Shown one piece after another: positions 1-25,012 of a stretch of 25,481 nucleotides of DNA (position 1 is the stretch's first letter; each line of letters begins with the position of its first letter). The stretch spans positions 1 through 25,481 of the IMG/VR virus record IMGVR_UViG_3300006754_000148. One strand, written 5' to 3'. Both the position numbers and the translations under genes were made by a program. The notes beneath the pieces were generated by a model, which made no database searches, was not told the origin of the DNA, and worked only from the letters and a program-made list of their open reading frames with translations. Source of the DNA: a virus.

Positions 1-1272
1 ATGACGGCAACGACTACTACGCTGGACAAAGCCCTGAAGGAATATTATCTTCCTCCAGCGCGTGAACAGCTAAATAATGAAAATATGATGCTTGCTCAGA
101 TTGAACGAACAACTCAGCATGTTGAAGGTCGCGAAGCGGTCCTCTCTTTGCACGTAGGCCGTAACAGCGGTATTGGTGCAAGAGCGGAAGGCGGAGAACT
201 TCCAACTGCTGGTAACCAGCAATACATTGATGCAAGAGTAGGTCTTGCATACAACTATTTGCGGATTCGTGTATCTGGTCAAGCTATGAAAGCTACTGCA
301 AGTGACTCTGGGTCATTTGTTCGTGCGCTTTCAAACGAAATGACAAACGGTGTCAACGATCTACGTCGTGATATCAATAGGCAAATATTTAATGATGGTA
401 ACGGTACTATTGCTCGATGCGCTAGTAACTCAAGCCAGGTTATTACTTTGCACGCAGATACAACTATCGCTCAAGCAAATCAGATCGAAGTTGGTATGCG
501 AATTGATCTTGGTACGTTAGCTGATCCTGACGAACTTTCAACAGATTCCACTGGTTTAGTGGTTTCTGCTGTAGACAAGTCAAACTTAGCAGCAGTTACG
601 GTTACCGTAACTGGTACAATAGGAGCTTCTGTTGACACAAGCGATTACATCACTCGTTTCAACAGCGGTAAATCTGCTGATGGATCAGGAGCTGACGCTG
701 CTGATAGTCTAGGTACATTGGAACTCATCGGTCTTCAAAAGATCGTAGGAGTTGCAGGAACCTCACTACACGGCACAGATTCAAGCACATACCCTGTATG
801 GGCATCTGTATCTAGTTCAAATAGCGGAACTAACCGAGCTGCAACTGACACTCTCTTTGAGAAAGTCATTGACGATATCGACATAGAAGCAGGCAAAGCC
901 CCTAATCTATGTGTCACCACTAAAGGTGTTCGTCGAAACTACGCAGCACAGTTGAAGAGCATGAAGCGCTTCAATGACGGAGCTTCTCTTACCCTAAAGG
1001 GTGGGTTCAAAGCTTTGACCATTGATTGCGGAGATGTTTCACTTCCACTAGTCGCTGACCGTGACTGTACTGGAAACACAGCATACATGATCAATACCAA
1101 CCACATCACACAACATGAAATGTCTGATTGGGAATGGGCTGATTATGATGGTGCAGTTCTCAGGAACCGTTCCGGTTACGATGAATGGCAAGCATTCATG
1201 TTCAAATATCATCAACTCTGTACTGACCAGAGAAATACACACGGTATAATTTCTGATCTATCGGAGAGTTAA
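1..1272 (+). CDS. Major capsid protein (HK97-fold type)
   Basis: A 423-residue protein that probably forms the icosahedral shell. The N-terminus, a helix beginning LDKALKEYYLPP and followed by a glutamine/asparagine-rich stretch, is typical of a family of phage capsid proteins. Residues about 50-110 hold the glycine-rich GARAEGGELP region followed by NYLRIRVSGQAM, as expected for the extended loop and spine helix region of the HK97 fold. The middle (about 140-230) is Ser/Thr/Ala/Asp-rich and may be a surface insertion. The C-terminal part contains a conserved-looking aromatic stretch (SDWEWADYDG). The ATG is the first base of the window. The N-terminus looks complete, but an upstream extension cannot be excluded. 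It leads a rightward structural operon. The stop is followed 2 nt later by the next ATG, so translation is likely coupled. Assignment rests on family resemblance and position, not on a search. Confidence 0.85.
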   Translation: MTATTTTLDKALKEYYLPPAREQLNNENMMLAQIERTTQHVEGREAVLSLHVGRNSGIGARAEGGELPTAGNQQYIDARVGLAYNYLRIRVSGQAMKATASDSGSFVRALSNEMTNGVNDLRRDINRQIFNDGNGTIARCASNSSQVITLHADTTIAQANQIEVGMRIDLGTLADPDELSTDSTGLVVSAVDKSNLAAVTVTVTGTIGASVDTSDYITRFNSGKSADGSGADAADSLGTLELIGLQKIVGVAGTSLHGTDSSTYPVWASVSSSNSGTNRAATDTLFEKVIDDIDIEAGKAPNLCVTTKGVRRNYAAQLKSMKRFNDGASLTLKGGFKALTIDCGDVSLPLVADRDCTGNTAYMINTNHITQHEMSDWEWADYDGAVLRNRSGYDEWQAFMFKYHQLCTDQRNTHGIISDLSES

Positions 1273-8593: not shown

Positions 8594-11500
8594 ATGGCAA
8601 TACAGGAAGAAGATTTTAATTGGAGTGATCTTTACGATACTTTAATAGAAGAATCTACTCCACCTGAAGAGCTTCCAGACTTAGAAGGATTCGATCCAGA
8701 AGATCCAGATACTTGGACAAGCCCTACTCCTGTTCCGACAGAGCCAGTTAAAGGTTCTGTAGCGTATGAAAGAAATTTATATTACGAACAGCAATACCAA
8801 GAAAAAGAAGTAGCTAAATGGAACGAAGCTAGAGATGCTGAAATAGCAGCACTGTATAAACAAGAAGAAGAACGGATGCAGGCAGTCTATGAAGACATTG
8901 AAACCTTATCTACTCTCAAAGATATGGATCAGTATGAAGCTTTAAACCATACTGAGCTGGCTAAATTCACATTACAAATGTCACAATCAAGTGATGAAGA
9001 AGTAGTCGAATGGATGCAATACATTCTCCACATGCTGAAAGATTACCAGCCTTTCAAAGATGTAATGTACGCTGTTAGTGACGGCACTCAAACTTTCGAT
9101 AATCTTTATAACCCAGAACTTTTTAAAGAACCCCCTCGATGGCAACGAATGGTTGGTTGGGTTTTTTCAAAAGTTGATGCTCCTCTGCAGGAAGTATTGG
9201 GCATTATCGGGGATGTGGTGGAACTCAATTTTAAGTCAGCATATGCTAGATTGGGTCATTTAGGTGTTGATTTTTACCAGTTGTTAACACCCGACGGAGT
9301 AATGAAAAAGATACTTACCCCAGTTTTGGGTGAGACAGCAGGAAATATCATTAGTGGTGGCGCAATCTTTGAAGCTGCTGAAGATTTTCTGAAAGATCAA
9401 AAAAGCGATGTTCTCCTTACAAGAGATAGAAACCAAGATGGTAGATTAGATGCTTACGAAGCCTTTGGAATACCTGATGATTTCGGAAAAGACATAGGTT
9501 GGGGCTGGGCTAATGCTGGTAATGCTCTGAATCTAGGTATGGAGATAGCATTAGATCCGTTAACCTGGGCAACTTTGGGTGTTGGTCCAGCAGGTAAAGC
9601 TGCTTTAACTTCTATATCTAAAGTAGCGGTACATACTGGTGGTAAACAAGCAGTTAAAAACGTGTTTACTGACGCTGCGCTGAAGAAATTAGGAAAGTTT
9701 AGCAAAGCAGCAAACTTGAGTGATACTCAACTTCAAGCAGCTATAGATGCAATTAATGCTGGTTTAGCTCGTAAAGCACCATGGAAAGTAAATCGTGTAG
9801 AGGAATGGTTGGGGAAGAGTTTATCAGTTACATCAAAACCTGATGGACTCAGTATCGTAGAGAGCGTAATACAAGCGGTAGGGGCAGATGTAGCTGACGA
9901 AGTAGCCGAAGCTATGTTGAGGGCTGCTCCTAAAATAGGTGTTGGTACTAAACAAGTTAAATGGTCAGGTAAAGCAGCAGCAAGGACTAAAAGATATGGT
10001 GCTGATACTCCGTTTGCTCAACGAGCTGCAAAGAAAGCTGATAAGTACGGTGCTTTACGTGAAGGTGTGGAAGGAGCGACAGAGAAAACTGTCGCTAATT
10101 TAGAGAAACGTATAGCTAAGAATTTAAAAATTATACAAAGGCGATCTGGTGGCGGGATGGGATTCGGCCATGGCAGATACACGCGTATGATGCCATTCAC
10201 ACGCCCAATGTATCAACTATGGAGGAGAAAAGGTTGGACTGGATCTAAAGATAAGTTTCTTAACCTTACTAGAGCAACCATGCAATTAGGTAGAACCAGA
10301 TTTGCGGGTAGAAGAGGAACAGCTCCTGTTAGTCATGGATCTGATTTCGCAGCGAAAATGCGTATCGTTCTTGAACTGAGCGCTGATGGGGTAGCAAGAA
10401 CTCCTGCTGAGATGTTGGATGCTTATCGGCAGATGGCTTTAAATGCTTCTCAAGGAAAAGCAACTAAAGTTATTACGGATAATAAAGGTAATAAAGTACT
10501 TAAGCAACTTGATGCAGCAGATAGGCCAGTAGGTCAACCAGAAACACTTTGGTATAATCTCCAAAAACATGGCGTGGATGCGGATGGGTTAACTCCAGGT
10601 GGTAATCAAAGGCGTTTTGTTGGAAGGGAATTTGATGAACAAACTGGTACAGTAGCTCGTCCTTACAATTATGTAGATCCTAATGTAGAAACTGCTGTAA
10701 GATTTTGGGAAGAGATTAATCCTATATTAAAGCAACAATTATCTAGTGTACAAGAGACAGTTTTTCTAAACAAAGCAATTTCGGAAGAGCATCTTGCAAG
10801 GTTAGCAAAGATTAAAGGCGCTCCAAAAAAAGGAACCTATGGAGATCTTGAAGCATGGGTAGTAAAGATCAGCGATGAAGCAGAGCAAGTTACCAAAGAT
10901 CATTTAGATTCTACGCTATTTAAAAATAAGGAAGTTGATGACGCTGGTAACGTTATTGAGACAGATCAAGTTCTTCCTCCACCTGTACAAGTAGCGGGTG
11001 AAGAAATAGATGTTATGCAGAAATGGTTGGATAGCCCTGAAAGTTTTGGGCCTCCTGCTAATACTACAGTTGATGATGCTGTCGATGCTATAGATAAACG
11101 TATAGCTAGCGTTGAAGATACTGGCCCTGCAGGTGTGAATGCTCACCTTGAGAAAGCTAAGGGTGATAAAGAACTGCTTGAAGGTGAGGCAAACTGGTCG
11201 ACATTAACAAATGAGGACAAGCAGCTATCCAAGAATCAAGGCAAGGGGGGTGTCTTAGAGAATCTTGAGAAAGAAATAGATCGGTTAGAGGATGGTATTA
11301 CTGCTAACGAGGCAGCATCAGAAACTGCTCGTCATGGAAATAAATCTGAATGGAATACTTTAGAAGGTGAATACCAGAAAGGTGTACAAGAGTATTTGAC
11401 AATACGAAGTACTCTCAGTCAAGCAGTACATCATCTTGAACTTATCAAATCGCTTAGGGCAAGCATTCGTAAAACAGGAAAGGTTCCTTTATTCGGTAAG

Positions 11501-14500
11501 AATGGTCAGATCGAAGCATTCTATAGAGGTGTGCAAAAAGGGATAACTGATGGCAAGGTAATTGCTTCAAAAGGTAAAGGATTGCCAGATCCTCCTCTGA
11601 ATCGTCAACAAGTTCTTGATCGTAAAGCAGCGATAAAGGAACAACAAGCTCCTCTTGTGGCTAAGAAAGATAATATTACAGAACTTGAAATGTTTGAGTT
11701 AAAGTTCCTTGAATCTGAATGGGAATGGTTAGACAAAGTATCTAAGGCTCATGTCAATGAAGGCAATAAAACAAAGATGACTTCACATATGACCTCTTTA
11801 GAAAAACAAGCACAAGGAACAGTTGACGCAGCAGAAAAAGCATTAGCAAGAATTACTGAAAAATTAGAGAAGTTAAACGTTGAAAAGAATTTAAGACAGC
11901 ATGTAATTAACGCTCATGAAGCAGTTGAAACTGAACGTTTTCTGAATACACCCCTATTCGATAATATTTTTGATGAAGATATTCTTAGAGCAATAGACAA
12001 TGAAATATCAATAGAACATTACCGACCTAGGACAGAAGCTGAAGCAGCTCCTGGTGAAAAGATGGCTACAAAAATGGGTGATGAGCCTGGTCGTAAAGAC
12101 ATTGGACAGCTTAAAGATCCAGATAAGATGCAAAAACTTGCTGATTTAGCAGATAAAAATCCTAAACAAGTTGTGAATACGATTGCTGAAGATGTAGAAA
12201 TTGTGACGTTAGCTCAGCAAATTACTGATTTAAGGAATCGTGCTTTTATTAGTGAGATATGGGATTTAATAGAAGCAGGGAATACTAAGTTAAGACCTAG
12301 GTTTAATAAGAACGGAACGATAGATAAGCGTAGTCTTTTTTATAAACGTGCCAAGAAAGAAGGGCTTGAATTAGGTCATCTTACAAAAGATGATGTTTCT
12401 GTGTTGATAGATGATGCTTCAAAATCAGGTATTAAAGTTAGGGAAGGTCTTGAAACTGATCTAGTTACATTGCAAGGCGAGATTATAGCTAAGCAGAAAC
12501 AATTACAAGAACTTGTGGAAAAGAATCTTAATGATCCGTTACATGATTTCTTTGCCAGAGTAAATGTTGCTGTTGGTAACGATAGGCAAGCTTTATTTGC
12601 TAATGAAGAGTTCACAGCATTTGCTGATAACTTGATTGCGAAAACAGATGACCCAGTTCTAAAAGCAGCAAGCGAAGATTTTATGAAAATACCTGTCCGG
12701 ATGAGGGAAGGTTATCGAATCAATCCTGCTGCTGAAGATTTTAAAGGTGTTTGGATTGACGATACCCATTCGCTTCGCTCTCAAAAAGAACAGCTTAGAA
12801 GGAACTTGAGGAATAAAGAAAAAGATCTTAATGTTCTTGATAGCAAAATTACAAAATTTGAAAAGCGTGTGAAAAACCATGAAGATGGTGTGTACGACGA
12901 TTTGAGAAGTAAGGTAGAAGGCAATAGAGATGTTGCTCGTGTTAGCCCATTGCCATCACAGCTTGAATTAAGTGAATTGACAGAGATACTGTATTTCATG
13001 AGAGAGAACTATAAGGCTTTTAACATTAAGGGTGGTAAATATACTTTAGCTAACGTTAATGCTGACGAAGCGCTTAAAAGAACTCAGTTTGTTTCAGAGT
13101 CAACGGAGAATATTGGGTTGACAGCTCGGCAGGATGTTATGCGAGATCAGATAAAGTCTATTGATGCTCGAATTTCAAGGTTAGAAGAAGACATAATATT
13201 TGAACATGGTGGTCAAGTAATTCCTAAAAATGAATTTGTTGCTTTAACAGCTAATAATAAAGAGTGGATTAACCTTAACAGGCAACGTACGATTATTCGA
13301 GAGAAGCTAGATACTGTATCAGAACTTCGTGCTAATACAGCAAAACAAAAAACTAAATACGATGAGTTTATCGAAGGTACAGCTCCTCCTCCTTTTGAAG
13401 AAGATGTACGTGTGTTGATAGATACTGTAACTGAAGGTATTGAACATAATGATGTTTTAAAAAAACAGTGGATAGAACGCCTTAAAGAAATAGATGCCGA
13501 ATTAGATGGCTATGGCAAACTGGACGAGATTGATGAATCTATTGATGCTATCGATACAACTTATCGATCAGGTCAGTTAGAAGAAATGGATAAAAACTTG
13601 GAGAAGTGGGAAGTTCAACTCAACGAAAGGTACTTAACTCAGGAGAAACATCTTCTTGAAGAACAGATAGCAAACATAAGTGTCCGGCAGAAAGAACTAA
13701 ATGTGCTGGTTGGATGGTGGAACCTCCAAGATACTTTAAAAGTGAAAGACGGAAAGCTCATCACCCCTGGAGGGGAAGTATTATCTCAGCCAAGAGTTGG
13801 TTATAAATGGTCGATAGACGAGAATGGCATGTTAAAGGAAATACCTGATGCTAGTCGAGTACCTGAAGACATGGTTAAGTATGGTGGAACAGGTAAGATC
13901 ACTCAATGGGAAGTAGGTAAAGTAGATGAAGCGCATATACTTCCAGAACATTTTGATGCTGGTAATAAGACTCCACTTATTCATTATGCTGAAGCTCAAA
14001 TTCCATTAGATGATTTTAAAAACTTAGCTCAAGAAATGTATGTAGCAGGGTTAGATCCAGAGCTGCTTATAAGTAGATGGAATGCTGCACAACAATACCG
14101 AATGTTGCAAAAAAGTGATGAGACAGCTACAGCGTACCGAGAGCTATCTGTAACACGAGGCCTATCTGAAGGTAGTATTCCTGAAGGAGTAGGTAAAACC
14201 TTTCTTGATGTTGACTTACATAGTGCTGGTTATAAAGCTAGTAAAGCTGGAGTATCGCATGGGCAAAGTGTTTCTGGCAAGATGCGTTATGCACTTGATG
14301 ATCTTAAACGGAAAAAAGATACATTAGAAAAAAAGATAGCTGATACTCTTGATCCACTTCCATCAGATATAGACAGTTTAAATAAATTAAACAAACAAAT
14401 TGAAGAATTAGAAGATCTTTATAAGCAAGGCATTCCTGTGGAAGGAATGTTAAGTGGTCCAGCAGCGCCAACAAAACCAATAGGTTTAGGGGAACATATC

Positions 14501-17500
14501 CCTGGATCTGGAGTACCTATGCAAAGCGATCTTGTAGCCCGCATGTTCCACGCAATAGATGACTTTGAAGATTTCTTTGTGACAGCAAAAGAAGCTGGTT
14601 ATGGAAATATGCGAAGCGTACTAGATGATATTGAAATGGATTGGGCTTTTGAAGGAGGGCTAAAAGGCAAGCAAGTCTACGACATTGGTGGCGATAGCCA
14701 AATGATGTTGCCAGAAAGCCTCAATAAAGTCAGCGAAGTTGGCCCAAGGGCAGGCCCTTCAGGTGCAGAATTCGGTCCTTCGCGTGTCCCTGATACTTTG
14801 AACATACAAAGAGAAATTGGTTTGGAACAGGGTCGAGAAGCTTGGGCGATGTTTAAACCTTTTGTTAGACCTCATGATTGGGTTGCACGAAAGATGGGAT
14901 TTCTCCGAACGTTCAATGCTTTAGCTGATAAACACGGTAAGGGTTTGGCTGAACATGTTAGGGAAACAACGAACGCTAACGTCGCAGCAGGAACAGCGGA
15001 CAAAGCGCTTCTAGTGAGAACATTAGAAGAATTTCCTGGTGAAATAGTTGATGTTATGAAAACCGTTGATCAAAGCTTTATAGATGCTGCTACACCATTA
15101 ACTCAAAAAAAATTAACTCAAGGGTTACATGAGAAATTAACTGGCTGGGTACGAGAGCTACGAAAAACACAAGGAAGTATGACTAGAAAAGGAGGCAAAG
15201 ACGGAGCTGAACGACTAGCAATTTACGATAGTATCAAAACTGCATTTCCTGGATATCACCCAGTAACAAAAATGCCAGTGTGGAAAATGGTAAAGCGGAT
15301 AGTTGATCAAATAGATGAGTTTTCTTTAGAACAATGGGAATGGATCTCTTCAATAACTAAGGGAGATACCGGATTTAGGCATCCAGTTACCGGAAAAATT
15401 CAACGTATAGCTGACGTAGATCCAACAACATATAATCCAAGGATTATTTCAGCAGAAACATACAATCAAATTGATGAACTCCGTAAAGCTGGGGGAGAAA
15501 ATTGGGATACTTTTGAATCTTTCACAAACCAAGCAATGTTAGCTGAACGATTAGACGCTATGGTTATCGCTGGAGAATTAACACAAGCGGAAGCAGCTCA
15601 AATAGCTAAGAGCATGCCTGGGATTATAGATACAGTAATTAGGCCATCAAAAGCTAAGATAATAGGTCAAGCTCAAACTGCTGATGAGATACAAACAATG
15701 CTTCGTAGTAGCGGACGTTTACAGGCAAGAGATTTCTTTCCTCATGTCAAGAACGTAGCTAGGTTGAATGAAAAAGTAAGAGAAATATTCCAAAGTATTC
15801 TTAAAGATTCAAGCAATAAAGATTGGGTTATTAATAACCTTTATGAACAAGATCCAGTACAAGCATGGATACGTTACGCAGGTGATATAGAACCTAAACG
15901 AATTGTTTACGACACATTAGGTGATTTGCAAGATTTTGTTTTACATGACAGAAAACTTATGGATAATAATGTTGGTAGACCAGTATTTGGGGAACGTCCT
16001 GCTGTTATAGATGGGGATTTAATCGTTAAGTACGACGGTCCAGGAGATCCTATTTTTGAATTTGATTTTATAGATCCAGTTACAGGTACGAAAAAGAAAT
16101 TCAAATCAAACCTTCATGAACCTGAAAAACAATTCCTAGACAGATTAGAGCTTGTACCAGAGTTAGAAGGTAAGTATGTAGCAGTTGAAACAGGAACTGG
16201 AGCCAAATTAGTTGATAGAGATATCGCTGATGAGTTAGTAAATAACATTATCCCTAAAGTAACTGGTGAACTAATGCCAGGGAAACTTGCCCGAAGTCTT
16301 AATGTTTGGACCACAGGCTGGGCTACTTGGGTAACTGTTGTCAAACCAGCATTCCACATACGTAACGAAGTCGGTAACCTTTTTAATATGATTGTTGGTG
16401 GTTTTAAAAATCCTAAGAAACTTATAGATAGCATGAGATTACAATACGTATCTAAGCAAGTACGAACTCACATGCAAAAAGGTGGTTATCTTAAATTCGA
16501 TGATGCTCTCGATGACTTAGCAAGGAATGAAAGATTAATGGACCCTGGTCAGGGTGGTTATGGGCATACTTTTACAAAGATAACGCCAGATGATGTTTTT
16601 AATTTAAATTTAGCAAGAGAACATGGCATTCTTGGAACTTCATTCTTTAACGACATTCAAAAAGATATCTCAATATTTGAACAAAGAAAATTAAGAGAAA
16701 AAGCAACCACAACGAATCGTGGAAGACAGGCAATGAATACTCTGCAAAGAAAATACATAAACAATACCATTACTAGACATGGTCGTGCTATGGGTACGTT
16801 CTTTGAAGACAATGCTCGACTAGCTATGTTCCTCGATGGGTTAGATCAAGGGCTTGCTCCTTCAGCAGCAGCAGTACGTACAAAACAATTCCTATTTGAC
16901 TACGGTGACCTTACTAAAACAGAAGAACATATAAAAAATGTGAGTAGATTCTATACGTGGATGAGAAAGAACACTGTTTTGCAAGCACGTATGCTTACTT
17001 CAAGTCCTGGTTCTGTATGGAAAGCGCAAAAAATGACGCAAGGAATAATGCAGAACTTCTTTGGGTGGGAGAATACGCTTAGTGAAAAATTTGAACCTGA
17101 TTTCTACAGAGATAATGGGTTCATGTTCGGCGCTCACGATTATGATTTTATGGTTCGGATGGAAACCCCATTAATAAGTGCGTTAGAAACCATAGAGAAA
17201 GTAGGTTGGGTCCTTAACCTGGGAGATATCAATCCATTAATTGGTTTCTTTGGTGGGGAAGAATTAGAAAATGTTTTATCCATACGTGACTCTAGGTATC
17301 CAGGTCAGAGAGGTCCTTTAAGAATTGGTCAGCAAATTTCTGGTTTGTTAGATATCTTTGCTAATGGTCCGAAACAAGCTGTTGATCTTACCTATCAATT
17401 AGCTGATGGTAAAAATATGTTTACAGGAAAAAGGATAGAAGAGTGGGGTGTTAAGAATACTTTATTTGAGTTAGTAAATTTGGGCATTCCAGCACTTAAA

Positions 17501-18784
17501 CAATACTTTAAAGATGCTGGGAAATGGGGGTTAGGAGATCCACTTGGATTAGTCCCTCCACACATGGAATTAAATCCGCAAGAAAATGCTGATGGTTGGA
17601 AAATAAGAATGCTTAGTACATTGGGTGGCCTTAATGTTTATGAACTAAACAAAGATCAACAAATGAATATGGTTGGCCAGATCAGACGAGAATGGGCAAA
17701 CATTATTAGCAAGGCAAAAGAGGAAGGACTAGATATCCCATCTTGGTCTGACTTAGTTGATGCTGGCAAACTTGAAAGAGCTAACGATGTGTTAATGATG
17801 CTCATTTTCCAAGGGCTTGATAAAGCTGACTATAAGAATAGGCTGGCAAGTTATCTTCCTGAAGGGATTCGAGAAAAATTTGAGGATGAGATAGGTGTCC
17901 CATATGATGCTATTACAAGGGATCTTGTAAGCGAAGAAGACTATGCAAAGAATGTCGAGTACGCTATTGAAACTTTCCGCATCCTATTAAACGATGGAGA
18001 AGAAACAGGCAAGATTCAAGTAGCCCCTGAGATTAAATTAGAGATAGCTATGGCATTAACTAGTCCGCAAACATTGGCGGACTATGAAGCAGCAGGAATA
18101 CAGCCATTCAGGGAGAACCAGTTTCTGCGGGATGACCCTACAGAAAAGAATGTCGAAAGAGCTAACAAGTACATAGAGATTATGCTTAATGCTGCTGGAT
18201 TAGATAAAGAAACGGCGCGAGCTATGCGTCCTGTTACTACAGAGATAGAACAATTCTATAAGGATGGTGTAAAAGCAGGCTTAGAAGATTGGGAAATATA
18301 CTTAAAGATTGTAGATGAACTTTCTCGTAGAGAGCTGGCAGTCATGTCCGGACTATTGTTTGGAGCTGGGGTAGAAACGTTACCAGAATTTGATAATGAT
18401 AAAAGCAGAACCGTAGAAGAGCTGAAAAAGCTACAAGAAAGCGGTGTGAATCAGCGAGCTAAGTTCTTAATAATAGCTAACCTACTTGGGATAGCAGTAA
18501 CACCTGGGATGATAGATAGTTTTGTTTTGTACGGAAAACGTAACTTAAGTAATGCTGAACTTGCATTCCTAGCATTGGAACCTAACCCTACGATACCTAA
18601 TAGGAAAGACCCTCGAACTGATGAAGAAAAAATACGTGATGCTATGAATGCTCAAAGCGCATTAGGAACATCCATGTCAGGAACTCCAGTACCTCCGGAT
18701 CTTACTCCGTCTGCTCCGCCTGCTCCGTCTGCTCCACCTGCTTCATCGGGATCTTCTTTGGGGCAATGGCAGATTGGGGAATAA
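8594..18784 (+). CDS. Giant 3396-residue putative internal/ejection virion protein
   Basis: One uninterrupted 10.2-kb frame encoding a protein of roughly 380 kDa. The N-terminus is acidic and proline-containing (residues 1-60). Residues 278-289 are a perfect EF-hand loop (DRNQDGRLDAYE). They are followed by GWGWANAGNALNLG and MEIALDPLTWATLG, wording seen in other giant phage proteins. Residues about 850-1750 are dominated by Lys/Glu/Leu helical, coiled-coil-like sequence. Residues about 2580-2800 hold KPAFHIRNEVGN (from K2584), FFEDNARLAMF (2736-2746) and FDYGDLT followed by RFYTWMRKNT (F2786), a block I associate with large polyvalent or injected phage proteins. The last 35 residues are Pro/Ser/Ala-rich. 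No lytic transglycosylase or peptidase motif was found. The ATG abuts the previous stop. The 3' end overlaps an opposing gene by 83 bp. It probably serves as an ejected core protein, in place of several smaller ones, inferred from size and context. Confidence 0.75.
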   Translation: MAIQEEDFNWSDLYDTLIEESTPPEELPDLEGFDPEDPDTWTSPTPVPTEPVKGSVAYERNLYYEQQYQEKEVAKWNEARDAEIAALYKQEEERMQAVYEDIETLSTLKDMDQYEALNHTELAKFTLQMSQSSDEEVVEWMQYILHMLKDYQPFKDVMYAVSDGTQTFDNLYNPELFKEPPRWQRMVGWVFSKVDAPLQEVLGIIGDVVELNFKSAYARLGHLGVDFYQLLTPDGVMKKILTPVLGETAGNIISGGAIFEAAEDFLKDQKSDVLLTRDRNQDGRLDAYEAFGIPDDFGKDIGWGWANAGNALNLGMEIALDPLTWATLGVGPAGKAALTSISKVAVHTGGKQAVKNVFTDAALKKLGKFSKAANLSDTQLQAAIDAINAGLARKAPWKVNRVEEWLGKSLSVTSKPDGLSIVESVIQAVGADVADEVAEAMLRAAPKIGVGTKQVKWSGKAAARTKRYGADTPFAQRAAKKADKYGALREGVEGATEKTVANLEKRIAKNLKIIQRRSGGGMGFGHGRYTRMMPFTRPMYQLWRRKGWTGSKDKFLNLTRATMQLGRTRFAGRRGTAPVSHGSDFAAKMRIVLELSADGVARTPAEMLDAYRQMALNASQGKATKVITDNKGNKVLKQLDAADRPVGQPETLWYNLQKHGVDADGLTPGGNQRRFVGREFDEQTGTVARPYNYVDPNVETAVRFWEEINPILKQQLSSVQETVFLNKAISEEHLARLAKIKGAPKKGTYGDLEAWVVKISDEAEQVTKDHLDSTLFKNKEVDDAGNVIETDQVLPPPVQVAGEEIDVMQKWLDSPESFGPPANTTVDDAVDAIDKRIASVEDTGPAGVNAHLEKAKGDKELLEGEANWSTLTNEDKQLSKNQGKGGVLENLEKEIDRLEDGITANEAASETARHGNKSEWNTLEGEYQKGVQEYLTIRSTLSQAVHHLELIKSLRASIRKTGKVPLFGKNGQIEAFYRGVQKGITDGKVIASKGKGLPDPPLNRQQVLDRKAAIKEQQAPLVAKKDNITELEMFELKFLESEWEWLDKVSKAHVNEGNKTKMTSHMTSLEKQAQGTVDAAEKALARITEKLEKLNVEKNLRQHVINAHEAVETERFLNTPLFDNIFDEDILRAIDNEISIEHYRPRTEAEAAPGEKMATKMGDEPGRKDIGQLKDPDKMQKLADLADKNPKQVVNTIAEDVEIVTLAQQITDLRNRAFISEIWDLIEAGNTKLRPRFNKNGTIDKRSLFYKRAKKEGLELGHLTKDDVSVLIDDASKSGIKVREGLETDLVTLQGEIIAKQKQLQELVEKNLNDPLHDFFARVNVAVGNDRQALFANEEFTAFADNLIAKTDDPVLKAASEDFMKIPVRMREGYRINPAAEDFKGVWIDDTHSLRSQKEQLRRNLRNKEKDLNVLDSKITKFEKRVKNHEDGVYDDLRSKVEGNRDVARVSPLPSQLELSELTEILYFMRENYKAFNIKGGKYTLANVNADEALKRTQFVSESTENIGLTARQDVMRDQIKSIDARISRLEEDIIFEHGGQVIPKNEFVALTANNKEWINLNRQRTIIREKLDTVSELRANTAKQKTKYDEFIEGTAPPPFEEDVRVLIDTVTEGIEHNDVLKKQWIERLKEIDAELDGYGKLDEIDESIDAIDTTYRSGQLEEMDKNLEKWEVQLNERYLTQEKHLLEEQIANISVRQKELNVLVGWWNLQDTLKVKDGKLITPGGEVLSQPRVGYKWSIDENGMLKEIPDASRVPEDMVKYGGTGKITQWEVGKVDEAHILPEHFDAGNKTPLIHYAEAQIPLDDFKNLAQEMYVAGLDPELLISRWNAAQQYRMLQKSDETATAYRELSVTRGLSEGSIPEGVGKTFLDVDLHSAGYKASKAGVSHGQSVSGKMRYALDDLKRKKDTLEKKIADTLDPLPSDIDSLNKLNKQIEELEDLYKQGIPVEGMLSGPAAPTKPIGLGEHIPGSGVPMQSDLVARMFHAIDDFEDFFVTAKEAGYGNMRSVLDDIEMDWAFEGGLKGKQVYDIGGDSQMMLPESLNKVSEVGPRAGPSGAEFGPSRVPDTLNIQREIGLEQGREAWAMFKPFVRPHDWVARKMGFLRTFNALADKHGKGLAEHVRETTNANVAAGTADKALLVRTLEEFPGEIVDVMKTVDQSFIDAATPLTQKKLTQGLHEKLTGWVRELRKTQGSMTRKGGKDGAERLAIYDSIKTAFPGYHPVTKMPVWKMVKRIVDQIDEFSLEQWEWISSITKGDTGFRHPVTGKIQRIADVDPTTYNPRIISAETYNQIDELRKAGGENWDTFESFTNQAMLAERLDAMVIAGELTQAEAAQIAKSMPGIIDTVIRPSKAKIIGQAQTADEIQTMLRSSGRLQARDFFPHVKNVARLNEKVREIFQSILKDSSNKDWVINNLYEQDPVQAWIRYAGDIEPKRIVYDTLGDLQDFVLHDRKLMDNNVGRPVFGERPAVIDGDLIVKYDGPGDPIFEFDFIDPVTGTKKKFKSNLHEPEKQFLDRLELVPELEGKYVAVETGTGAKLVDRDIADELVNNIIPKVTGELMPGKLARSLNVWTTGWATWVTVVKPAFHIRNEVGNLFNMIVGGFKNPKKLIDSMRLQYVSKQVRTHMQKGGYLKFDDALDDLARNERLMDPGQGGYGHTFTKITPDDVFNLNLAREHGILGTSFFNDIQKDISIFEQRKLREKATTTNRGRQAMNTLQRKYINNTITRHGRAMGTFFEDNARLAMFLDGLDQGLAPSAAAVRTKQFLFDYGDLTKTEEHIKNVSRFYTWMRKNTVLQARMLTSSPGSVWKAQKMTQGIMQNFFGWENTLSEKFEPDFYRDNGFMFGAHDYDFMVRMETPLISALETIEKVGWVLNLGDINPLIGFFGGEELENVLSIRDSRYPGQRGPLRIGQQISGLLDIFANGPKQAVDLTYQLADGKNMFTGKRIEEWGVKNTLFELVNLGIPALKQYFKDAGKWGLGDPLGLVPPHMELNPQENADGWKIRMLSTLGGLNVYELNKDQQMNMVGQIRREWANIISKAKEEGLDIPSWSDLVDAGKLERANDVLMMLIFQGLDKADYKNRLASYLPEGIREKFEDEIGVPYDAITRDLVSEEDYAKNVEYAIETFRILLNDGEETGKIQVAPEIKLEIAMALTSPQTLADYEAAGIQPFRENQFLRDDPTEKNVERANKYIEIMLNAAGLDKETARAMRPVTTEIEQFYKDGVKAGLEDWEIYLKIVDELSRRELAVMSGLLFGAGVETLPEFDNDKSRTVEELKKLQESGVNQRAKFLIIANLLGIAVTPGMIDSFVLYGKRNLSNAELAFLALEPNPTIPNRKDPRTDEEKIRDAMNAQSALGTSMSGTPVPPDLTPSAPPAPSAPPASSGSSLGQWQIGE

Positions 18785-19187
18785 CCTCAGCTTCAATATA
18801 CCTATCCTTACGTGCCTGTAACGTACCAATAAGTTCACGAATAGTATTATCCGCTTCAAGAATATGAGTATGCGTAGACTCAACCTCAACCTTAGACGTT
18901 CGAGCTTCACGAGCCTCACGCCTACGCTTTAAAGAACGATACTCTTTAATCATAGAAGAATCACCAGCAACAGCCATCTCACGCATACGTCTTTCAACCT
19001 GATCAAACGCAGCCTCCTCAGCATCAAGTAACTGTTCAGCAAATTCAGGGTCACGTTTCTCATGACGACGTAAAGTCTGAACAGTTATACCCGCATCACT
19101 ACAAGCTTCAGCTCTAGTCTTACCCACAGCAATAGCCATAAGTAACGCACTTCTTGTAGCAGCATCTTCTAAAGCAATCTTAGGCAT
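18702..19187 (-). CDS. Small terminase-like helix-turn-helix protein
   Basis: A 161-residue protein. Residues about 15-45 (IAVGKTRAEACSDAGITVQT then LRRHEKRDPEF) form a helix-turn-helix of the kind found in phage small terminase subunits, which bind the packaging site. A long helical region follows, with EAAFDQVERRMREMAVAGD and EYRSLKRRREAREART, then KVEVESTHTH, similar to the segment that ends the oligomerisation core in several small terminases. The last 40 residues are low-complexity and end in EQ/TEQ repeats. The ATG lies 8 nt inside the end of the primase-helicase gene, with AAAGGG upstream. It is the last gene of the leftward operon and its tail overlaps the opposing giant gene by 83 bp. 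A transcriptional regulator is the main alternative. Small terminase is favoured moderately. Confidence 0.5.
   Translation of the reverse strand: MPKIALEDAATRSALLMAIAVGKTRAEACSDAGITVQTLRRHEKRDPEFAEQLLDAEEAAFDQVERRMREMAVAGDSSMIKEYRSLKRRREAREARTSKVEVESTHTHILEADNTIRELIGTLQARKDRYIEAEVIPQSAIAPKKIPMKQVEQTEQAEQTE
18705..18740. repeat. Four-copy 9-bp tandem repeat coding on both strands
   Basis: Four tandem units, CTCCGTCTG, CTCCGCCTG, CTCCGTCTG and CTCCACCTG, differ at one or two positions each. Rightward they give the Pro/Ala/Ser repeats near the giant protein's C-terminus (SAPPAPSAPPAS). Leftward they give the VEQTEQAEQTE tail of the small-terminase-like protein. Because the period is a multiple of 3, copy-number change keeps both frames open. 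Confidence 0.85.
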
Positions 19188-21684
19188 TATCTATCACCCT
19201 TTCATAGTCTATAACATACACACGTTTCTGTTTACCAAGATGGAAAACTCTTTCTTTCTTCGCCCCCATATGATCCTCTAACCACCTACCAAAAGCAGTA
19301 TGTTTCTCAAAAGGTAACGGTAACCTTGGACCCCAAGGAGCATTCTGTATACGCATCAACTCAATAGTAGAGATACCTAACTTGTCTTCTTCTTCCAAAG
19401 CAAAGACAGCACGCTCCTCAGATTCATAAGCCCAACGTATCAGTTCAAGTATAGGATTCTCAGCAGAAGCTGTCTTAGCATCATGTATCACAAGATCCCA
19501 TGACTTATCAGGGATAACCAAACCGTTATCTAAATACTCTGCAAAGTCCTGCAACAAATTGTAACCATACTGTAACACTCTAAAGTTATTCATTTGCCTA
19601 CCACTCAAATGATCAGGCAAATGATTAACCTTAGGAAGAACAACCTCATTAGTTAAATAACTCTTATGCAACCAACTCAAATAAAGATACGCCATAGGCT
19701 GCTCCCACTCAAAGAACTCCATAGCCTCACGATTCTTCCCCTCCATAGGGATATTAATCATAATAGATCTATCAACATGAGACTTCTCAGACAACGTATC
19801 CTCACCAGTAACAATCACCGGCGTGTCCGTAAGAATCTGCGTAACCTCCGCACGATTCTGATTCATAGAACCCTTCGTAGATACCTGACCAGTATACGTA
19901 TCACGAAGTAATTGATCCAAAGTCTTCTTAGCATCATCCCTAGCGCCAGGCCGGTATTCGTCAAACCATACAGGGAAGGCATTGGAGGCCATGAAGTGAG
20001 ATGATATGGCGAAGGGGGTGGTGGTGGTCAGGTTGGAATTAATACGAGAGCCGGAAAACATGTAAGTAAGGATCTGCGTGAGGGTAGTCTTACCAGATCC
20101 ACTAGTACCAGACAGGTGCAAGATAGGAAACTCGTGTAGCAGGGGACGTAAAGGAGCAACAGCTAACCAACAAAGCATAGGCATAGTAACCTCATGCTTA
20201 TGCAAGTTAATCAAATTCTCTAAGATTTTACTAGCCCGCTCCTTAGTAACCTGTGTAGGTAACATAGTTAAACTGTCATCAATTTTAATACCAGTTTCTT
20301 TAGCTATGTACCGCCACTCCTGATCACCAATAGAACCATTAGACCAAACAAAATCTCCACGATGAAGACCCACTCTTGTAGTCATCCTACCCACAGGTTT
20401 CATTGTAGCTTCATTAAGAAGATACGAACCTAACTTCTGAGCATCTGTAGTGTTACCATAAAATTGACGAGCATGTGCCTGCGACCAATCAATAAGTTTC
20501 TGAACCGATCTAAAATGAGAACCAGTGATCGTCACCTGTCTTCCTGTAGGAGCAATACGACCTTCAACAGCCCATGTATCAGAACTCTCACCAATTAAAA
20601 ACCGTTCAATATCTATAGCCCAGTTAGTAATCTCAGCACCTTGTTGGTTATCAGAAGTTAACCTCCGATACAAATTACCAACACGTAAAATTTTCTGCGC
20701 TTCACCGAAAGGCATCTGCCACTTGTCAAACAAATCACGGATATCTTTCTCCTGCATATCAGCAACATCTTTATTGTCAGGCAAAGGAGTGATACTAACA
20801 TCAGCTCCACGAGCTGTAAGCCACTGAGCTACCTGAGTCCTACCCGAAGTACCCGCTGCATCCCCATCAAAGACAATAGAAATATCACGCTCAAGCCAAA
20901 CACTCGGATCATAAATACCTAACAGCTCTTGAATGTTTTGATTAGCACCAGGGAAACCAACAACAACATACCTATCCCCATACAAATAATCCATAACCCA
21001 AGTATCTGATTCTCCCTCACAAATAATTATAGGATCATCATTTTCCTGAAGCATGCGTAAAGATTCCCTTGACCCATACAAAGTCATCTTAGAACCAGCA
21101 CCAGCTCTTTTGCCACCACTCTTAGATAACGTCTTATACCCTACGACACGACTATCCTGATCATAGTAAGGAGTCCAAACCATTTCGTTCTCCATCACAT
21201 GAATATCAAAATTGTTTCTAAGATAACCAACAGGAGGCAAGCAAGGATGGTTACGAGAGTAGTAATAATGCCATCGTTCAGCAGCAGCCTCATTATGTTT
21301 AGGGTTAGGCCAACGAAAAGCACTTGACTTCTCCATGGTTTCATAATCAACGCCGGACTCTAACTGTGTAGCATAGAGCTGGCGAGCTAACTCAACAGCT
21401 TGATCGACAGACCACTCTGATTTAAAACGAAGGATGAGATCAAGGACAGAACCTTGCCACCCTTCAGCGAAATCGCCAACCCTCCACTCTTGTAACCTAC
21501 TCCTGAATACGTCGAGTGAAGGGTTGGCATCTTTTCTAAAAGGGGAAGAGTAACTAAGGCGTAACCTTCCCACAACTTGAGGTTCATGGTTGAAATAACT
21601 TAGAACAATGGCTGGATGCAATTCCCTTCTTATTACTTTGGCATTCGCCTGCCGAGCTATGGAATTAGCGACATCCGGTGTCAT
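19180..21684 (-). CDS. Primase-helicase (TOPRIM plus P-loop ATPase) without zinc ligands
   Basis: An 834-residue replication protein that probably primes and unwinds phage DNA. Residues about 40-90 match the shape of the DnaG-type CHC2 domain (SSPFRKDANPSLDVF, then WRVGDFAEGWQGSVLDLI), but the usual Cys/His ligands are replaced and no Cys occurs in the first 110 residues. The TOPRIM domain follows, with catalytic-type E223 in CEGESD and D273/D275 in VFDGDAAG, then PDNKDVADM. The C-terminal half is a P-loop ATPase, with Walker A GTSGSGKT (526-533, K532) and Walker B VWFDE (572-576), like the DUF927/superfamily-3-type helicases fused to phage primases. The start is fixed by AAGGAGG four bases upstream of the ATG. 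It sits 13 nt after the ssDNA-binding-like gene and overlaps the next gene by 8 nt. Confidence 0.8.
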   Translation of the reverse strand: MTPDVANSIARQANAKVIRRELHPAIVLSYFNHEPQVVGRLRLSYSSPFRKDANPSLDVFRSRLQEWRVGDFAEGWQGSVLDLILRFKSEWSVDQAVELARQLYATQLESGVDYETMEKSSAFRWPNPKHNEAAAERWHYYYSRNHPCLPPVGYLRNNFDIHVMENEMVWTPYYDQDSRVVGYKTLSKSGGKRAGAGSKMTLYGSRESLRMLQENDDPIIICEGESDTWVMDYLYGDRYVVVGFPGANQNIQELLGIYDPSVWLERDISIVFDGDAAGTSGRTQVAQWLTARGADVSITPLPDNKDVADMQEKDIRDLFDKWQMPFGEAQKILRVGNLYRRLTSDNQQGAEITNWAIDIERFLIGESSDTWAVEGRIAPTGRQVTITGSHFRSVQKLIDWSQAHARQFYGNTTDAQKLGSYLLNEATMKPVGRMTTRVGLHRGDFVWSNGSIGDQEWRYIAKETGIKIDDSLTMLPTQVTKERASKILENLINLHKHEVTMPMLCWLAVAPLRPLLHEFPILHLSGTSGSGKTTLTQILTYMFSGSRINSNLTTTTPFAISSHFMASNAFPVWFDEYRPGARDDAKKTLDQLLRDTYTGQVSTKGSMNQNRAEVTQILTDTPVIVTGEDTLSEKSHVDRSIMINIPMEGKNREAMEFFEWEQPMAYLYLSWLHKSYLTNEVVLPKVNHLPDHLSGRQMNNFRVLQYGYNLLQDFAEYLDNGLVIPDKSWDLVIHDAKTASAENPILELIRWAYESEERAVFALEEEDKLGISTIELMRIQNAPWGPRLPLPFEKHTAFGRWLEDHMGAKKERVFHLGKQKRVYVIDYERVIDNA

Positions 21685-23759: not shown

Positions 23760-23931
23760 GTTTCTCCCATTCTTTTTTTGCGTAGGATTCTGTATCTTCC
23801 CAAGCTTCACGTTGTCCACATTCAGAACACACGATTGTTTTATTATCTCTTCTACTCAATGCCACAAATGGGTGGTTCATTTCACCACCACATGCAGGGC
23901 AATACTTAAATTCAAACGTCATATCTCTCAT
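23731..23931 (-). CDS. Small zinc-ribbon protein
   Basis: A 66-residue protein. Two CxxC pairs, C11/C14 in YCPACGG and C35/C38 in VCSECGQ, form a zinc ribbon. A charged helix follows (WEDTESYAKKEWEKHVA). I use the ATG at 23931. A TTG one codon upstream and an ATG at 23922 are alternatives, none with a strong ribosome site. It overlaps the preceding gene by 20 nt and the following nuclease by 29 nt. The layout recalls the small phage 'Lar-like' zinc-ribbon proteins, but the match is too short to assign that role. It may be a nucleic-acid- or protein-binding accessory. Confidence 0.65.
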   Translation of the reverse strand: MRDMTFEFKYCPACGGEMNHPFVALSRRDNKTIVCSECGQREAWEDTESYAKKEWEKHVADNSKKV

Positions 23932-24214
23932 CAACCCATTTCTTTAAACGATCATTCATCGCTATAACACACTCATCATACTGATCATAAACAGGGCTAC
24001 CTGCCATCACACAACTACTACTAGATGTTGCATTACTAGGAATATCCATCATCATGGAATAAAAATACTCAAATTCGCCAGGCACTCCCTCAACAGGGCG
24101 CTTAATAACCTCAGCATTTACAATGAGCTTCTCCCCATGATCATAATCAAGAGTTCTCTTCATCGTTTCTCTTGGCATATCATCCGATGAATACGGTTCT
24201 CTAGTCATTTCCAT
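23912..24214 (-). CDS. Hypothetical protein
   Basis: A 100-residue protein not recognised. The first 35 residues are charged (MEMTREPYSSDDMPRETMKR). Residues about 25-60 look like strand segments (KLIVNAEVIKRP, GEFEYFYSMMMDI). A Ser/Thr patch follows (NATSSSSC), then a C-terminal helix (ECVIAMNDRLKKWVDERYDV). It starts at an ATG with AAAGGA about 8 nt upstream, and its end overlaps the zinc-ribbon gene. It has no catalytic motif or membrane segment. As a member of the leftward operon it is presumably an early accessory protein. Confidence 0.55.
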   Translation of the reverse strand: MEMTREPYSSDDMPRETMKRTLDYDHGEKLIVNAEVIKRPVEGVPGEFEYFYSMMMDIPSNATSSSSCVMAGSPVYDQYDECVIAMNDRLKKWVDERYDV

Positions 24215-24256
24215 TTCATTTTCCTTTCTCTTTTACTTTCTTTTTTATTTTTATTT
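24215..24256. other. Short T-rich intergenic gap
   Basis: A 42-nt gap between two leftward genes. On the coding (minus) strand it is nearly all A and G, ending in GAAAGGAAAATGAA before the ATG of the 100-residue gene, so it mainly serves as its leader. I see no hairpin or clear promoter. Confidence 0.5.
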
Positions 24257-25012
24257 TTACGGCACTATCTCAGGCCCATTTCTTTTATCAGCTAAACGCA
24301 ATCGCGAATAGCCACGACAACTTTGACATTGCATCTGAACATATCGCATAGTCTTAGTCACCTTATACCCACGACGCATCATACGATTACTGCCACAAGT
24401 AGGACAACCATTCTCTTCTGTATACATATTATGGTTAGGATGATTCGTCATCCAAGGACGCAAAGCCAAGTACACATCATACAAAAGATTAATATCCTGC
24501 TTGTTGTACTTAACCATGATCTTCCAAGACTTAGGATCACCACGCATACAACCAGCCCAGGTTTTAAAGCCACCAGTATCAGTCTTTACACCAATGTCAA
24601 GGAACTTACCAAGACTATTCAAATGATTAGTAGTGAACTTAAAATACTTACGAGCTACTTTCAGCGTATCAACAGAACTAACAGGTGAAGCTGGACCAAG
24701 CCCATGCTTCACAAACCTAGCGTTAGCTTTCTTATAATCAAAAGCATCACCATTATGAGCAACAATAACATCAGCCTCATCAAACAATTCATGCAGCTTC
24801 TTAACTACATGGTAATCATTCTCAGGATCTTCAGCATAAGCCTTCTTAAAGTCAGGCAAAGCACAAGCATTCACTCGCTTCTGATGACCCCAACGCCAAG
24901 CAAAACATAACATGTACCACTCACGCTCATGCGCTATGACATCTTGTTGATAATGACCCCATACATACGATAAGTTAGGGGCCGTTTCTATGTCATAGAA
25001 TAATATCTTCAC
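24257..25012 (-). CDS. DnaQ-like 3'-5' exonuclease with C-terminal zinc ribbon
   Basis: A 251-residue protein. The DEDDy exonuclease motifs are visible in order. Exo I is D7 and E9 in FYDIETAP, Exo II is around HNGDAFDYKKAN (D92, or D89), and Exo III is YNKQD (Y169, D173), matching YxxxD. A zinc ribbon follows at 203-232 with C203/C206 (CPTC) and C229/C232 (CQSC), embedded in a basic region (MMRRGYKVTKTMRY). No polymerase domain is fused, so it may proofread for a separate polymerase or degrade DNA or RNA. The start is a GTG (25010-25012) with no clear ribosome site, chosen because Exo I lies only 6 residues in. The upstream gene stops 8 nt earlier, so restart after it is plausible. Confidence 0.75.
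   Translation of the reverse strand: MKILFYDIETAPNLSYVWGHYQQDVIAHEREWYMLCFAWRWGHQKRVNACALPDFKKAYAEDPENDYHVVKKLHELFDEADVIVAHNGDAFDYKKANARFVKHGLGPASPVSSVDTLKVARKYFKFTTNHLNSLGKFLDIGVKTDTGGFKTWAGCMRGDPKSWKIMVKYNKQDINLLYDVYLALRPWMTNHPNHNMYTEENGCPTCGSNRMMRRGYKVTKTMRYVQMQCQSCRGYSRLRLADKRNGPEIVP

Follow-up and report, generated by a model that had tools for sequence, protein, structure and literature searches.

An 83-bp convergent gene overlap carrying an in-frame tandem duplication in a metagenomic phage

Introduction

Convergent overlaps, in which two genes on opposite strands share their 3' ends, are commonplace in the genomes of prokaryotes and phages. They are well accounted for by mutation of stop codons (PMC2174442), and some long overlaps are possible in the convergent orientation only (PMC2478687). 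Among the prokaryotic convergent overlaps of more than 60 bp, 54 of 178 might be real (PMC2478687). Opposite-strand overlaps of more than 50 nt were found in 84 of 1,079 Siphoviridae, 82 of 544 Myoviridae, and 21 of 347 Podoviridae reference genomes, which amounts to 6-15% of the reference genomes in these three classical tailed-phage families (PMC7017920).

The end of transcription at such junctions has also been described. An intrinsic terminator is present in only 20% of the Escherichia coli genes in convergent overlaps, and terminators may lie within coding sequence (PMC2174442). Convergent transcription in E. coli was shown to be terminated by head-on collisions (PMC13082048), and in Rickettsia convergent read-through yields antisense RNA without evident harm (PMC3027695).

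Here we describe a junction of this kind in a viral DNA fragment of 25,481 nucleotides, hereafter the window (IMG/VR virus record IMGVR_UViG_3300006754_000148, positions 1 to 25,481), and its counterparts in related phages.

The convergent gene pair

The features around the junction are as follows.

8594-18784, + strand: giant gene, 3396 aa, stop codon TAA, last gene of the + strand structural block
18702-19187, - strand: small-terminase-like (TerS-like) gene, 161 aa, stop codon TAA
18702-18784, both strands: tail-to-tail (convergent) overlap, 83 bp including both stop codons, frame 2 (83 mod 3)
18705-18742, within the overlap: tandem array of two 18-bp units, 18707-18724 and 18725-18742, identical at 17 of 18 positions
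19180-21684, - strand: primase/helicase-like gene, 834 aa, directly upstream of the TerS-like gene, with PHROG primase matches

The original prediction placed the ends of the two open reading frames at 18784 (+) and 18702 (-), each C-terminus lying inside the other gene, and these coordinates are exact. The two genes lie on opposite strands and share 18702-18784 at their 3' ends; TerS residues 136-161 and giant protein residues 3371-3396 fall wholly within the overlap. Both genes are real, being conserved outside the overlap, with 71-83% identity to relatives for the TerS-like protein and 23-31% for the C-terminal 599 aa of the giant protein. Because of this conservation each gene should be translated to its first stop codon, and a separate coding test of the overlap is unneeded. 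The 83-bp overlap is genuine, and it is an ordinary convergent gene overlap.

Frameshifts and mispredicted ends are often behind long overlaps in public genomes (PMC2478687), and a sequencing or assembly error might have made or extended one of the two tails. The contig L015 (IMGVR_UViG_3300025096_001700) differs from the window at 8 sites over 9,833 bp aligned, none of them in the overlap. An assembly error, which the original prediction had named as one of the things that could undo it, is unlikely, since this contig has an identical junction and yet differs at eight other sites. Other lineages overlap too, in different sequence, and for practical purposes we regard the error reading as refuted.

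The two proteins and their tails

The giant protein had no match by sequence in Pfam, PHROG, NCBIfam, or the PDB; judging from the position and size of its gene, it is probably a large internal virion protein. Its length varies from 1959 to 3396 aa among related phages, as in the following two relatives.

L017, 10389-16268: giant gene, 1959 aa
L026, 10445-18583: giant gene, 2712 aa

The structural model of the C-terminal part (mean pLDDT 39) was too poor for use. The tail is short and rich in Pro, Ala, and Ser in several lineages, often with a PPxSL-like end (PSAPPASL in L019, QSPPASL in L024, GAPPPSSL in L026, and EVPSSL in L004).

The TerS-like protein showed profile matches to PHROG 4044, terminase small subunit (E 7e-9), PHROG 309 (E 1e-5), and PHROG 1482 (E 8e-5), while its match to Pfam Sf6_terminase (E 4e-5) was below the cut-off. 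The top five PDB matches of its model were all Sf6 TerS chains, although weak (E 0.12-0.68, TM-score 0.33-0.43). Its gene neighbor is the primase/helicase-like gene and not a large terminase gene, and no large terminase gene was identified in the 25-kb fragment; a place beside the gene of the large subunit is usual for TerS genes, but not obligatory.

The N-terminal part of the TerS-like model is confidently helical, and residues 133-161 have a pLDDT below 50, from which the acidic, Gln-rich tail beginning at residue 133, where the overlap falls, is predicted to be disordered. Conservation fades after the EAEII region of the alignment. The TerS tails end acidic also in lineages with a short overlap or none (L016, L020, and L026).

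Relatives and overlap lengths

A search with the TerS-like protein found 13 viral contigs. Repeat scans with the TerS alignment, the C-terminal region of the giant protein, the alignment of that region, and the alignment of the neighboring primase returned the same contigs and a few fragments ending before the junction. No relative was found in bacterial genomes, and tblastn found no TerS or giant protein relative in annotated phages. Near-identical contigs were each counted as one, as were L020 and L023 (92% identical), which gives eight lineages with a readable junction.

The overlap measures 83 bp in the window and L015, 59 bp in L017, 55 bp in L004, 49 bp in L019, 44 bp in L024, 32 bp in L016, and 8 bp in L020, L021, and L023; L026 has no overlap, its two genes being separated by 3 bp. 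The expectation that the overlap would be kept in relatives is thus borne out in seven of eight lineages, tail to tail, the eighth missing by 3 bp; relatives ending both genes well before the junction, which would have spoken against it, were not seen among these lineages.

The relative frame of the two genes is 2 in five of the overlapping lineages and 1 in the other two (L004 and L019). L004 (frame 1) and L024 (frame 2) cluster in the primase tree with a support of 89/89; as these two differ in frame despite their grouping, the frame relation is not preserved. Conserved dual-coding tails, with one frame throughout and conserved residues in both proteins, were not found among the relatives: both frames occur, and the TerS tail is unconserved. 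The primase/helicase-like neighbor is about 70-73% identical across the complete relatives. The TerS-like gene lies downstream of it on the replication strand, an order which holds in the relatives.

Length and tightness of the overlaps

The lengths were compared with a run-on null, under which each overlap reaches to the next stop codon in the antisense frame of each giant gene, taken in its own frame. The probability was 0.13 for the window, whose 83 bp is the longest overlap of the set, and 0.27-0.92 for the others (Fisher p = 0.62, seven lineages). The overlap lengths are unremarkable and agree with what is expected of a gene that has lost its stop codon and runs on to the following one.

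A first null, in which the DNA between the last conserved parts was shuffled, was set aside because it destroys the conserved tail sequence; for judging length, the run-on null is fairer. The shuffle null gave a 6-36% chance of any overlap per junction; that all eight lineages overlap or come close to contact exceeds this expectation, though the null discards the conserved tail sequence. The tightness of all eight junctions is slightly unusual; it fits compact genomes and leaves room for mild selection for tightness.

The tandem repeat within the overlap

The array at 18705-18742 is the top-scoring tandem array of the whole window, scored either as 4.2 copies of 9 bp (86% match) or as 2.1 copies of 18 bp (95% match). 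Its 9-bp periodicity (25/29) and its 18-bp periodicity (19/20) are beyond chance, the best values in 300 window shuffles being 21/29 and 16/20, respectively. Each 18-bp unit consists of two 9-bp half-units. The array is translated as PSAPPA-PSAPPA on the + strand and as QVEQTEQAEQTE, made of Gln, Thr, Ala, Val, and Glu residues, on the - strand. The original prediction counted four 9-bp units translated on both strands; these are the half-units of the two 18-bp units, which differ at a single base and describe the repeat better than four independent 9-bp units would.

The giant protein ends in TPSAPPAPSAPPASSGSSLG in the window and in SMPSAPPASLIAG in L019, where PSAPPA occurs once; the ends are SMPQSPPASLVPRQ in L024 and GGAPPPSSL in L026. 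Among the eight lineages the array is found only in that of the window (the window and the near-identical L015), and an exact scan with the array and adjacent sequence matched L015 alone. The simplest reading of these sequences would be one 18-bp (PSAPPA) tandem duplication within a pre-existing overlap. With a length divisible by three, such a duplication would have given both proteins six extra residues and shifted neither frame. The idea that the repeat lengthened both tails together is right for this duplication, which lies wholly inside the overlap. A copy number varying in steps of 9 bp was not observed: the array occurs in one lineage, and none of the four same-frame differences in overlap length from the window (24, 39, 51, and 75 bp) is a multiple of 9.

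That the repeat caused the overlap is not supported; the overlap did not need it, as relatives lacking the repeat still share as much as 59 bp.

The doubly translated repeat might itself have been selected, if both tails need to be long and the duplication became fixed for extending two useful disordered tails in a single step. Such selection would suit a duplication that lies wholly in the overlap with both frames still open, as well as the Pro/Ala/Ser-rich giant tails of several lineages and the acidic ends of the TerS tails in lineages with little or no overlap. However, the repeat is found in one lineage only, and the TerS tail is unconserved. The sole difference between the 18-bp units (CCG/CCA) leaves the giant protein unaltered and replaces Ala with Val in TerS, a weak hint, from one site, that the giant tail may be the constrained one; this suits constraint on the giant tail alone. 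We consider selection on the repeat very unlikely.

Elsewhere in the window, a pyrimidine-rich imperfect repeat (TCATTT/TTTTAT units) lies at 24205-24260 between two - strand genes. Read on the - strand, this stretch is rich in purines and immediately precedes the gene at 23912-24214.

Transcription at the junction

The region 18000-19600 of the window holds no terminator-like hairpin with a T-run, and none was seen around the junctions of most relatives; a bidirectional intrinsic terminator (G+C-rich hairpin and T-run) between the operons is represented by 0 sites. RNA folding at the junction was no better than in shuffles on either strand, and no known RNA family or tRNA was found in the window. 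The original prediction held that there is no room for a terminator between the two blocks. None is seen at the junction, as it stated, but "no room" is too strong in view of terminators placed inside genes (PMC2174442). Terminator-like sites number 7 and 5 in the two halves of the window, where shuffles give 7.8 and 8.5, and since no part of the window is enriched in them, their absence at the junction is uninformative and not specific to it.

The overlap has also been proposed as a regulatory device, in which late transcripts enter the terminase/primase operon and early ones the giant gene, antisense RNA or collisions helping an early/late switch. The lack of an intrinsic terminator-like site at the junction, the head-on collisions of E. 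coli (PMC13082048), and the antisense RNA of Rickettsia (PMC3027695) are consistent with such a device. The first of these loses its force in a window where terminator-like sites are nowhere enriched, and read-through or collision is possible at any convergent junction, overlapping or not. Moreover, the length, frame, and sequence of the overlap are all unconserved. Antisense RNA and early/late switching at this junction are speculation, and which block is early is an assumption. We consider a regulatory device very unlikely. A broader version, in which the junction in this phage group is kept overlapping and terminator-free, collision balances the replication and structural blocks, and the repeat tunes both protein tails together, seems to us highly improbable.

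Origin of the overlap

We favor, with a probability of roughly 85%, an ordinary convergent overlap of a compact phage genome, made and remade by shifts of both stop codons. In most relatives the TerS-like gene reads on through the antisense of the end of the giant gene until it meets a stop codon. In the lineage of the window, the 18-bp PSAPPA block would then have been duplicated in tandem within the overlap, both frames staying open and each protein gaining six residues. The terminase tail past residue 133, being disordered and poorly conserved, may tolerate lengthening. Transcripts from both sides would end by polymerase collision, Rho, or diffuse termination, and some antisense RNA may arise, probably harmless and serving no dedicated switch.

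This junction is a clean example, backed by orthologues, of a convergent overlap that is long and yet no artefact of annotation, and of a single in-frame duplication able to lengthen two unrelated proteins at once. Because the length and frame of such overlaps shift from one relative to another, a lone striking overlap should not count as evidence of regulation.

Comparison with known systems

Pseudomonas phages tf, LUZ24, and PaP3 have, like the window, two convergent transcription units covering the genome (PMC3517423). In phage tf these units are parted by a predicted bidirectional intrinsic terminator (PMC3517423), while none is seen in the window.

The podoviruses MW202795 and MW202554 (metagenomic, Manatee Spring) have a major capsid protein 26-28% identical to that of the window. 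As in the window, the structural block ends in a giant gene that runs into a convergent gene, the annotated overlap being 118 and 44 bp, respectively; the opposing gene is not TerS-like, being annotated as an HNH endonuclease in the former and a hypothetical protein in the latter. A motif region links the giant protein of MW202795 to those of the window's relatives (E 9e-5, hhalign probability 60%), and no match was found between the giant proteins of MW202554 and the window. The matching region of MW202795 holds a DYG.LTK.E ... FYTW.RK-like motif.

The major capsid protein of the window (1-1272) is about 29% identical over its full length to those of Arthrobacter and Microbacterium phages (Jasmine and Shocker), a likeness which ties these metagenomic phages to cultured actinobacteriophages. 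Microbacterium phage Shocker differs from the window at this point: endolysin genes follow its large gene, and the opposing gene comes only after a gap of ~110 bp.

Compared with the antisense overlaps reported for double-stranded DNA phages (PMC7017920), the same junction is traceable here across eight lineages, with shifting length and frame. Prokaryotic convergent overlaps (PMC2174442; PMC2478687) resemble that of the window in their opposite strands, shared 3' ends, run-on lengths, and, mostly, lack of intrinsic terminators. The 83 bp of the window contrasts with the prokaryotic modal length of 4 bp and exceeds the 60-bp level above which most annotated overlaps are doubtful (PMC2174442; PMC2478687). 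The overlap of the window is backed by orthologues, and it also carries an in-frame tandem duplication.
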